Origin: Clostridiales bacterium
GTDB taxonomy: Bacteria > Bacillota > Clostridia > Christensenellales > Aristaeellaceae
Length of the DNA: 64,000 bases
Direction of reading: 5' to 3'
Assembly: GCA_015056145.1 (NCBI GenBank)
Contig: SVGY01000001.1
Coordinates: forward strand, 434,001 to 498,000
Position numbers and translations under genes: made by a program
The notes under the pieces: generated by a model
What the model was told of the DNA's origin: nothing
What the model saw: only the letters and a program-made list of their open reading frames with translations
Database searches by the model: none
Shown: positions 19,636 through 21,754 of the stretch, in pieces
Numbering within the stretch: position 1 is the first letter of the stretch
Layout of the letters: every line of letters starts with the position of its first letter

Positions 19636-20151
19636 ATGGATCAGAAAAAAATCGGCGTTTTCCTGAAGGAATTGCGCAAGCAGAAAGGGCTCACGCAAGA
19701 GCAGCTTGCAGAGCGGTTCAGCGTATCCGGCAGAACCGTATCCCGCTGGGAAAACGGAAACAACATGCCGGATCTGGATATTCTGATCGAAATATCCGAT
19801 TTCTACGAGGTCGATCTGAGAGAAATTCTGAATGGAGAAAGGAAAAGCGGGAACATGAACAAAGAAAACAACGATACTGTATTGAAAGCTGTGGATTATA
19901 CCAACGCAGAAAACGAAAGGGCCAACAAGCGGATCCGCATCTGCAACGCCATCGCCATGCTGCTGATCGTATTTTACATGATAGCAAAGGATACCGCCCT
20001 CTATGCCAGCAATTCCTTTATTGCTGCGGCTGCCGATTTTGCGCAGGGGGCAGGCGTCGGAATGTTGCTGGTGGGGCTGATCACCTCCGGGCGACATGGC
20101 GCAAAAATCAGGGCCTTCAAGCAGAGATTGCTGCACAGATCTGCCGAGTAA
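19636..20151 (+). CDS. XRE-family HTH regulator with C-terminal hydrophobic region
   Basis: IGVFLKELRKQKGLTQEQLAERFSVSGRTVSRWENGNNMPDLDILIEISDFYEVDLREIL; hydrophobic segments downstream. Confidence 0.88.
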   Translation: MDQKKIGVFLKELRKQKGLTQEQLAERFSVSGRTVSRWENGNNMPDLDILIEISDFYEVDLREILNGERKSGNMNKENNDTVLKAVDYTNAENERANKRIRICNAIAMLLIVFYMIAKDTALYASNSFIAAAADFAQGAGVGMLLVGLITSGRHGAKIRAFKQRLLHRSAE

Positions 20152-20170: not shown

Positions 20171-20207
20171 CTCCTCCGCAATCCGTTTTTGCGGGGGAGC
20201 TTTTTTT
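20171..20207 (+). terminator. Intrinsic terminator after the XRE gene
   Basis: CTCCTCCGCA...TGCGGGGGAG then CTTTTTTT. Confidence 0.88.
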
Positions 20208-20235
20208 GACTTTTTTACCGTAGTTATGCTATTCT
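20206..20235 (+). promoter_or_regulatory. Predicted promoter for the leader/MFS transcript
   Basis: TTGACT (20206-20211)-18-TATTCT (20230-20235), TGC extended -10. Confidence 0.5.
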
Positions 20236-20258
20236 AAATTACAAGAGAGGTGAACCCA

Positions 20259-20321
20259 ATGAGCTTAGGCGCATTTATCCGGGCCTCCGCTGCCCAAGAC
20301 ATGGCTCCGCACACAGTCTGA
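20259..20321 (+). CDS. Putative 20-aa leader peptide MSLGAFIRASAAQDMAPHTV
   Basis: ATG...TGA with SD-like GAGAGGTGA 7-8 nt upstream; first arm of an attenuator hairpin lies inside its last codons. Confidence 0.6.
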   Translation: MSLGAFIRASAAQDMAPHTV

Positions 20322-20418
20322 TAAGGACGGTACTTGTGCGGAGCGGTATTCCTTTCGTAGGCAATCACCGTCCTGTCAGGCTTTGTGCTTTCTTACCCAG
20401 CTGAAAAAAGTAAGGAGC
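20304..20418 (+). promoter_or_regulatory. Attenuator-like 5' region: mutually exclusive hairpins and SD-sequestering hairpin
   Basis: GCTCCGCACA (20304-20313)/TGTGCGGAGC (20335-20344); AGGACGGT (20324-20331)/ACCGTCCT (20367-20374), extendable by CTGA/TCAG; CTTAC (20392-20396)/GTAAG (20410-20414) overlapping the SD AAGGAG. Confidence 0.65.
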
Positions 20419-20425
20419 AAAAGCC

Positions 20426-21754
20426 ATGAAAAACAATAAAAAAAGTATATTCTCATCCCTGCGCAGTTTTCTTGCACTGTGGGGCTCTCAGAGCGTATCC
20501 TCCATGGGTACCGCTATGACGGAGTACGCCTTGATCGTTTGGAGCTATGGCCAAAGAGGAAGTGCTTCCAGCGTTACCCTTTTGACCCTCAGTTCCTTTT
20601 TGCCGACCATTCTTTTCCGCTTCCTGGCGGGCGCTATTGCAGACCGCTGGGATAAAAAGCGCATCATGCTTCTGGCTGATTTCGTCGCAGCCTGCGGAAC
20701 CGTTGTCATTTTTGCATTGCACTCAGCATCAATGCTGCAAATCTGGCATCTGTATGTGATCAACTTTCTGCTGAGCCTGATGAATTCTTTTCAGGTACCA
20801 GCCGCCTATGTGGCCACCAGCCTGCTGGTACCCAAGGAGCACTACACCCGAACTGGCGGCCTGCAAAGTATTTCCGGCGCAATCGTCTCCATCCTCTCCC
20901 CTGCGCTGGGCGGGCTCGTCCTTGCCCGGGGCGGATTAGCTGCGGTGCTGGTCATCGATCTTTGCACCTTCGCCGTCGCCCTTCTGACACTGGTGTTTCT
21001 GCCCATTCCCAAGCCGCCGGCAGCCCCCGAAAAGGTCAATGAATCCTTCTGGCAGAATTGCCTCTCGGGGATAAAGTATCTGAGGCAGCACAGGCATCTG
21101 ATGAAACTGACCATGTTTATAGCAGCAGTCAATCTTCTTGCGAAACTTGGGCCGGACGGACTGATGCCTGCGTTTATCCTGAGCCGTACAAACGGCAGCG
21201 AAACAACGCTGGGACTCGTGCAAGCCTTTGTAGCCATCGGCATTATGGCAGGAGGGATGATCCTTGCCCTGTCAAAAGCTGAAACCAGCAGCATCCGGGC
21301 TGTCTTCCTTGCCTGTGTATGCATCTTCCTTACCGGCATGGGGCTTTCCCTCAGCCGCAGCGCTGTTGGATGGTGCCTGTTTGCCTTTTTGCAATATCTG
21401 TGCGCCGCTGTTATGAATATCCACTGGGGTACCATTATGCGCACGGAGGTTCCGCTGGCACTGCAGGGAAGGGTGTTTTCCGCAAGGGATACGCTGCAAA
21501 ACATCACCATTCCCGCTGGATTGTATTTGGGCGGCGTGCTTGCAGATGCCATTTTTGAACCGCTGATGAATGAAACCACCGCCATTGGCAGGGCTCTTCT
21601 GCCGCTCTTGGGCGGAGCAGGCGGTGCAGGCATTGCGTTTCAATTCCTGCTGGTTTCCGGCATTGGCTTTGTTCTCAGCCTTGTCTGTCTGAGTAACCCG
21701 GGCTTCCAGCCCACCCGAGATGCATCGAAAGACGGCGCATCCCCCGAGGAATAA
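20426..21754 (+). CDS. MFS drug-efflux transporter (MFS_3 / macrolide-efflux-like)
   Basis: SLRSFLALWGSQSVSSMGTAMTEYALIVWSY..., FLAGAIADRWDKKRIMLLADF; 12-TM pattern. Confidence 0.82.
   Translation: MKNNKKSIFSSLRSFLALWGSQSVSSMGTAMTEYALIVWSYGQRGSASSVTLLTLSSFLPTILFRFLAGAIADRWDKKRIMLLADFVAACGTVVIFALHSASMLQIWHLYVINFLLSLMNSFQVPAAYVATSLLVPKEHYTRTGGLQSISGAIVSILSPALGGLVLARGGLAAVLVIDLCTFAVALLTLVFLPIPKPPAAPEKVNESFWQNCLSGIKYLRQHRHLMKLTMFIAAVNLLAKLGPDGLMPAFILSRTNGSETTLGLVQAFVAIGIMAGGMILALSKAETSSIRAVFLACVCIFLTGMGLSLSRSAVGWCLFAFLQYLCAAVMNIHWGTIMRTEVPLALQGRVFSARDTLQNITIPAGLYLGGVLADAIFEPLMNETTAIGRALLPLLGGAGGAGIAFQFLLVSGIGFVLSLVCLSNPGFQPTRDASKDGASPEE

Follow-up and report, generated by a model that had tools for sequence, protein, structure and literature searches.

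The window, by which we mean the whole stretch of 64,000 nucleotides that was analysed, carries between positions 20206 and 20428 a promoter, a 20-codon leader ORF and three hairpins, followed by the gene of an MFS efflux pump, with all parts from promoter to pump on the plus strand. A terminator (20171–20199) is located upstream of the promoter, and just before it ends an ORF (19636–20151) for a Cro/RstR-type HTH protein with a hydrophobic C-terminal half. The promoter (TTGACT-18-TATTCT with an extended TG; 20206–20235) was found by a consensus scan and is followed by a leader Shine-Dalgarno (SD) sequence, GAGAGGTG (20245–20252), and the leader ORF (20259–20321), which encodes MSLGAFIRASAAQDMAPHTV followed by a stop codon. 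Terminator, promoter, leader SD, leader ORF and hairpins had been named in a preliminary description of the locus, and all of them were recovered in place.

The RNA between leader and pump can be divided into six arms. Arm 1, GCTCCGCACA (20304–20313), is supported by covariation and comprises the codons A-P-H together with the first base of the T codon. It is followed by the Val codon and stop (GTCTGA, 20316–20321), which form the left strand of an extension of hairpin B and pair with CAGGC at 20377–20381, and by arm 2 (GGACGGT, 20325–20331), the left strand of hairpin B itself. Arm 3, TGTGCGGAGC (20335–20344), is the right strand of hairpin A and arm 4 (ACCGTCC, 20367–20373) that of hairpin B, while arm 5, GGCTTTGTGC (20379–20388), serves either as the anti-SD strand of hairpin C or as the partner of arm 1 in the hairpin of the putative ON state. 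Arm 6, GTAAGGAGCAAAAGCC (20410–20425), is the right strand of hairpin C and holds the pump SD (GGAG, 20414–20417).

The pump gene (20426–21754) encodes a DHA3/Mef-like MFS efflux transporter of 442 amino acids. The protein matches Pfam MFS_1 and MFS_3 above cut-off, scores 216 bits against TIGR00900 (cut-off 319.6) and 128 bits against the Mef(A) model, far under the cut-off of 675, and reaches none of the curated NCBIfam cut-offs for Mef(A/B/C) macrolide efflux proteins. Judged by these profiles, it is a relative of Mef(A/B/C) within the same superfamily, not a Mef. A PADLOC search for defence systems gave no match to the pump.

Distribution of the element

Searched for by plain BLASTN among 61 relatives, the leader DNA turned up in nine, counting the window's own genome and one member of another family. 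Promoter, leader SD and ORF, the six arms and the pump SD are retained throughout these nine sequences, and the loops that separate them vary; TTGA and most of the -10 box are invariant in 9/9, as is the SD core GAGGTG. In the wider set, an SD-like sequence precedes nearly all other leaders, and a promoter match of comparable quality is present in only 13 of 65.

Scanning 85,462 species genomes for a pattern of the element yielded 63 stretches, nearly all from Clostridia MAGs of gut or rumen, plus Paenibacillus phocaensis. Since the pattern fixed parts of arms 1–3 and left arms 4–6, the upstream leader and the downstream gene free, the conservation of arms 1–3 in this set is partly by construction. 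A pump of the same family (38–70% identity) stands directly 3' of the element in 59 of the 63 stretches; as for the others, L036 and L062 are truncated by contig ends, and in L058 and L069 the gene is missing from this position. Across dozens of species, the leader ORF and the stems are kept together with the pump behind them, and the lack of conservation in orthologs that the preliminary description had named as refuting it was not observed. With a covariance model derived from 38 scan sequences, the element was detected in 22 of the 388 genomes examined from the class, representing 20 of 221 genera, as well as in 32 of 121 near relatives.

Several individual loci depart from the common layout. 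In the window's own genome, the covariance model also detected a second copy (G000:C4:111206-111336; L099, L130) before a paralogous MFS gene (39% identity); its leader, MILAIVSHPCKACRTICME, continues through the loop, as the usual stop is lacking. In L029 (around 1529–1600), a natural deletion downstream of hairpin A has removed arms 4 and 5, ahead of the pump SD, and resembles constitutive erm-leader deletions. In L058 (1988–2173), the switch lies directly 5' of a different gene, whose product begins FSGFPDRRFTDEIAGRL and which in L016 and L018 stands 3' of the pump, so that the pump gene appears to have been deleted. Lastly, L095 (G005:C42) encodes a pump of 48% identity behind a hairpin-C-like GGCTTTG/CAAAG stem, with no recognisable leader or arms 1–4.

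A plasmid search with the leader peptide and leader DNA returned no match, and the element pattern was not found in viral contigs; on these searches, a phage or plasmid origin of the element was rejected. Two plasmid-labelled records do carry relatives.

Competing RNA structures and in silico ribosome masking

The 143-nt leader region folds at -56.6 kcal/mol (z = -6.7), and none of 200 shuffles was as stable. Hairpin A, which had been described as ten perfect base pairs with its left arm in the last leader codons, forms 10/10 pairs between 20304–20313 and 20335–20344. Hairpin B (20324–20331 with 20367–20374) can be extended as had been claimed, its extension running through the Val and stop codons to give a stem of 20309–20331 with 20367–20388. 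The third hairpin overlaps the pump SD by CTTAC/GTAAG, as the preliminary description had it, but is longer than described there, as 20379–20385 (GGCTTTG) additionally pair with AAAAGCC before the ATG. As to the postulated competition between A and B, it is extended B that excludes both A and the SD hairpin; the cores alone could co-exist as an H-type pseudoknot, which is sterically possible (L1 9–13 nt, L3 6–58 nt).

Pairing was scored on 39 non-redundant cores against shuffles. Hairpin A (arm 1:arm 3) is paired in 90% of cells (shuffle maximum 88%), hairpin B (arm 2:arm 4) in 94% (90.5%) and the base of hairpin C in 96% (95.2%), while the B extension via the Val and stop codons (GYCTG:CRGRC) is paired in 96% of cells, a value that shuffles reach as well. 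The distal C stem varies in sequence and usually still pairs (CTTAC/GTAAG, CTTTTCAAAA/TTTTGAAAAG). A further pairing, between GCRCA of arm 1 and TGYGC of arm 5, had been missed in the preliminary description; it is kept in 38–39 of 39 cores at four of its five positions, and its informative column (G-C 29, A-T 10) is paired in 39/39. In L085 and L086, arm 1 reads GCTCYATGCA and both of its partners, arm 3 and arm 5, have changed to match. Taken as one structure, the ON hairpin is paired in 96.1% of cells and contains 32 double-change cells, compared to 8.9 in shuffles (0/500), and pairing falls to 34–43% when its strands are slid against each other; RNAalifold recovers the same hairpin independently. 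By these alignments, stems A, B and C and the arm 1:arm 5 pairing show covariation. It follows from the covariation that arm 1 has three partners, namely arm 3, arm 5 and, via GCTCC:GGAGC, the SD, with its GCACA half pairing with arm 5 and its GCTCC half with the pump SD. Arm 5, in turn, can pair with arm 6 or with arm 1.

An Rfam scan of the whole window brought no family to its cut-off, and the identity of the element with a known RNA family was hence rejected. The nearest likeness is to uup RNA (RF03060), which precedes ABC-F genes and whose hairpin A arms are nearly identical (GCUCCGuACA/UGUaCGGAGC), with scores of 21.7 bits for the window and 26.5 bits for L004 against a gathering threshold of 36.8; none of 15 wider element loci held a uup RNA at cut-off. 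Membership of the same family via a shared LAPY/LAPH peptide was also considered and rejected, because arm 1 is read in a different frame at true uup loci, which the new model (R2) does not match. Small ORFs upstream of ABC-F genes may enclose the orphan uup RNA at two RF03060 loci (L020, L021), and this RNA may itself be a leader-peptide attenuator.

For the masking of the RNA by a ribosome, the 5' end was removed nucleotide by nucleotide and the cost of opening the segment from pump SD to AUG was computed in 67 homologs, with folding that ignores pseudoknots and co-transcriptional kinetics. The opening energy of the ribosome binding site (RBS) was about 9–10 kcal/mol unmasked, fell to 4.4 when the first free nucleotide was +4/+5 of arm 1, and was back at 10–12 kcal/mol once the whole of arm 1 was masked. 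The optimum lay at +3 to +5 of arm 1 in 53 of the 67 homologs. A dip of more than 2 kcal was seen in 54 of the 67 real sequences as against 0.6% of arm-shuffled controls; L010, L033 and L037 showed none. For the window, the energy was 3.9 at +2 to +5 (first free nucleotide 20306–20309), compared to 7.7–11.9 unmasked and up to 13.7 when masked further. In 21 more divergent relatives, which are not a fully independent set since most were retrieved by a model that had the ON pairs built in, the optimum was at +3 to +7 in 21/21 and the dip exceeded 2 kcal in 17. An initial coarse scan had looked flat because 3-nt steps and the use of SD-unpaired probability hid the dip, which was resolved by 1-nt steps and the RBS opening energy.

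Masked to the optimum, the RNA has lost both hairpin A and the arm-1:SD pairing; the arm-1:arm-5 hairpin prevails, and hairpin C is reduced to 15%. The accessibility of the SD rises modestly (0.15 to 0.39) and stays near 0.17 in the window despite the drop in opening energy. An ErmC-like ON state with arm 3 paired to arm 5 is permitted by the sequence; it had a probability of 0.00 at every mask position and was discarded. The suggestion that a disrupted hairpin A would favour B and thereby change pump expression is supported by the in silico masking, in which the loss of A brings about extended B and the RBS becomes free.

A ribosome's leading edge lies about 12–16 nt past the first base of the P-site codon. 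Combined with the masking optimum, this would place the P-site on codon 12 (Ala) or 13 (Gln) of the window leader (20292–20297), and we infer that this is where the ribosome stalls. In the proposed mechanism, the pump SD would be masked as long as no ribosome is stalled, either because arm 1 pairs with arm 3 and arm 5 with the SD region (A + C), or because the GCTCC half of arm 1 pairs directly with the SD; a ribosome running through to the leader stop would leave C intact and hence the pump OFF as well. A ribosome held at about codon 12–13 would cover only GCTCC, breaking both hairpin A and the arm-1:SD pairing, and GCACA would stay free. This would allow GCACA, the Val and stop codons and arm 2 to join up, as a single long hairpin, with arm 5, the sequence just upstream of it and arm 4. 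With arm 5 captured, hairpin C would open and the pump be translated, so that it would be ON only when a ribosome stalls on the leader peptide.

The leader peptide and the probable nature of the switch

An in-frame leader ORF with a start codon is found in every homolog with intact upstream sequence, and an SD is visible before nearly all of them. In frame, pN/pS is 0.41, 0.40 and 0.29 in three groups; in shifted frames it is mostly about 1–1.5 or more, with one exception (0.48, in one frame of a 5-codon subset). Judged by substitution patterns, the leader peptide is under purifying selection and the ORF is translated. Its C-terminus, A-P-[RHC]-x-[VA]-stop, lies inside the hairpin in nearly all homologs. 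Inside the hairpin, amino-acid replacements occur (codons CAC, CGC, TGC, and even Pro to Leu) with the pairing retained, and it is therefore the RNA that rules in this part of the leader. Further upstream, the three groups diverge (MSLG..ALAAQxM, MKHTRWGISLAADVS and M(x)LCI[AV]x), and as the residues upstream of the stall differ strongly between them, no single known arrest motif fits. A literature search for the peptide strings returned nothing relevant, unrelated dengue vaccine papers aside, and to our knowledge the peptides resemble no known leader peptide.

The most constrained leader positions of the family, on which the predicted P-site falls, are those at -4 and -3 from arm 1 (A12 and Q13 in the window), with Ala in 60 and Cys in 22 of 85 leaders at -4, and Asp, Ile or Gln in 81 of 85 at -3. 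Phenicols and oxazolidinones act preferentially on nascent chains whose penultimate residue is Ala (PMC8987054). As such, Ala at -4 hints at phenicol- or oxazolidinone-like inducers, which is a guess from sequence context, and the Cys subgroup departs from the published Ala rule (PMC8987054).

From our point of view, the element is very probably an erm-type attenuator of translation. Computation has established its conservation, the constraint on its coding sequence, the covariation and the sharp folding optimum. As such an optimum almost never occurs in shuffles, the element behaves like an erm attenuator, with a short leader ORF that appears to be translated, a gene start masked by a stem in the predicted default state, and an alternative hairpin that in silico is favoured by a stalled ribosome and would free the start. 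The preliminary reading as a leader-peptide attenuator upstream of an MFS gene largely holds, on the grounds of conservation and masking. We further suppose that a ribosome-targeting compound causes the stall and that the pump exports it. Like ermBL-ermB and ermCL-ermC, the element combines a short leader ORF, a predicted stalled ribosome and two exclusive hairpins that share a strand, with an OFF hairpin that covers the start site of the gene as in the ermB model (PMC11264731). Unlike ErmB and ErmC, it has an efflux pump downstream and an unrelated leader peptide, and its arm 1 would choose among three partners, half of it masked and half used.

It is unlikely, though conceivable, that the stall is set by a cell-state signal such as amino acid or tRNA shortage or elongation stress instead of a drug, as in amino-acid operon attenuators or toiL. 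The differences in leader peptide between the subgroups would suit such a signal, as would the E. coli toiL uORF of topAI, in which stalling likewise remodels the RNA around a masked RBS and several drug classes are sensed at different codons (PMC12121999); toiL is, however, unrelated in sequence, organism and target gene, and answers many drug classes. On the other hand, no single regulatory codon is repeated in runs along the leader, Ala or Cys occupies position -4 in almost every case, which suggests a peptidyl-transferase-centre context, and the downstream genes encode an efflux pump or a homolog of a ribosome-factor resistance protein. The latter refers to weaker RNA relatives that precede FusB-like and CD3324-family genes, a similarity that could again be read in favour of a cell-state signal.

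Four matches of the covariance model in one other family, presumably Paenibacillaceae, precede genes for FusB/FusD-like EF-G-binding proteins (L135, L136, L137, L139), 3' of leaders with the same alternative-arm layout and peptides such as MAIWIMPDCSFARKPYAKPE. Two further matches (L129, L134) stand before CD3324-family small proteins, the leader of L129 being MQNKPVLVIVSGSVQRL. In the leaders of both groups, which have the full set of alternative arms, the opening cost was lowest when the mask stopped immediately ahead of GCAAAG or GCGAAG (GGGCAG in L134), i.e. in the same geometry as in the pump leaders, with a small dip in L137. This suggests, from few loci, that the RNA architecture has been reused before FusB-like and CD3324 genes. 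One could tentatively go further and, at somewhat less than even chances, see here a previously unrecognised, widespread attenuator family of Clostridia and Paenibacillaceae, in which the half-masked, half-free arm is reused with unrelated leaders for Mef-like pumps, FusB-like EF-G-binding proteins and CD3324-family regulators as a general sensor of ribosomes inhibited at the peptidyl-transferase centre.

An RNA-only switch, i.e. a riboswitch, a thermosensor or a protein-bound leader to which translation of the small ORF is irrelevant, would agree with the several competing structures and the unusual stability of the naked RNA. We regard it as highly improbable, as ORF, SD and peptide are conserved with in-frame purifying selection and the RBS is predicted to open only under a ribosome-sized 5' mask that ends inside the ORF. 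Transcription attenuation, with hairpin B/B' as an intrinsic terminator as in mef(E)/msr(D), is the most improbable reading, since, notwithstanding the precedent of Streptococcus Mef(E) (PMC4335068) and the CTTTGCTTTTTT that follows the hairpin in some short-leader relatives (L106, L120), a terminator scan finds none between leader and pump, most members have GGCTTTGCGCCGC after the hairpin and no U-run, and the covarying final stem sits over the SD in nearly every member. The leader of Mef(E)/Mef(A) (MTASMRLR) resembles the window element in that a leader peptide precedes a related Mef-type MFS pump; it acts by an intrinsic terminator together with stalling at MRLR (PMC4335068), and the window element has neither an intrinsic terminator, according to the scan, nor the MRLR motif.

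Overall, the reading as an erm-type translation attenuator lends itself directly to testing, since folding alone pins the predicted stall point to one or two codons, and the leader offers a testable handle on the inducing compound and the substrates of the pump. If it is true, many commensal Clostridia of gut and rumen possess an inducible pump. Catalogues of resistance genes would not reveal its induction, given that the pump lies below the Mef cut-offs and the switch is absent from Rfam.
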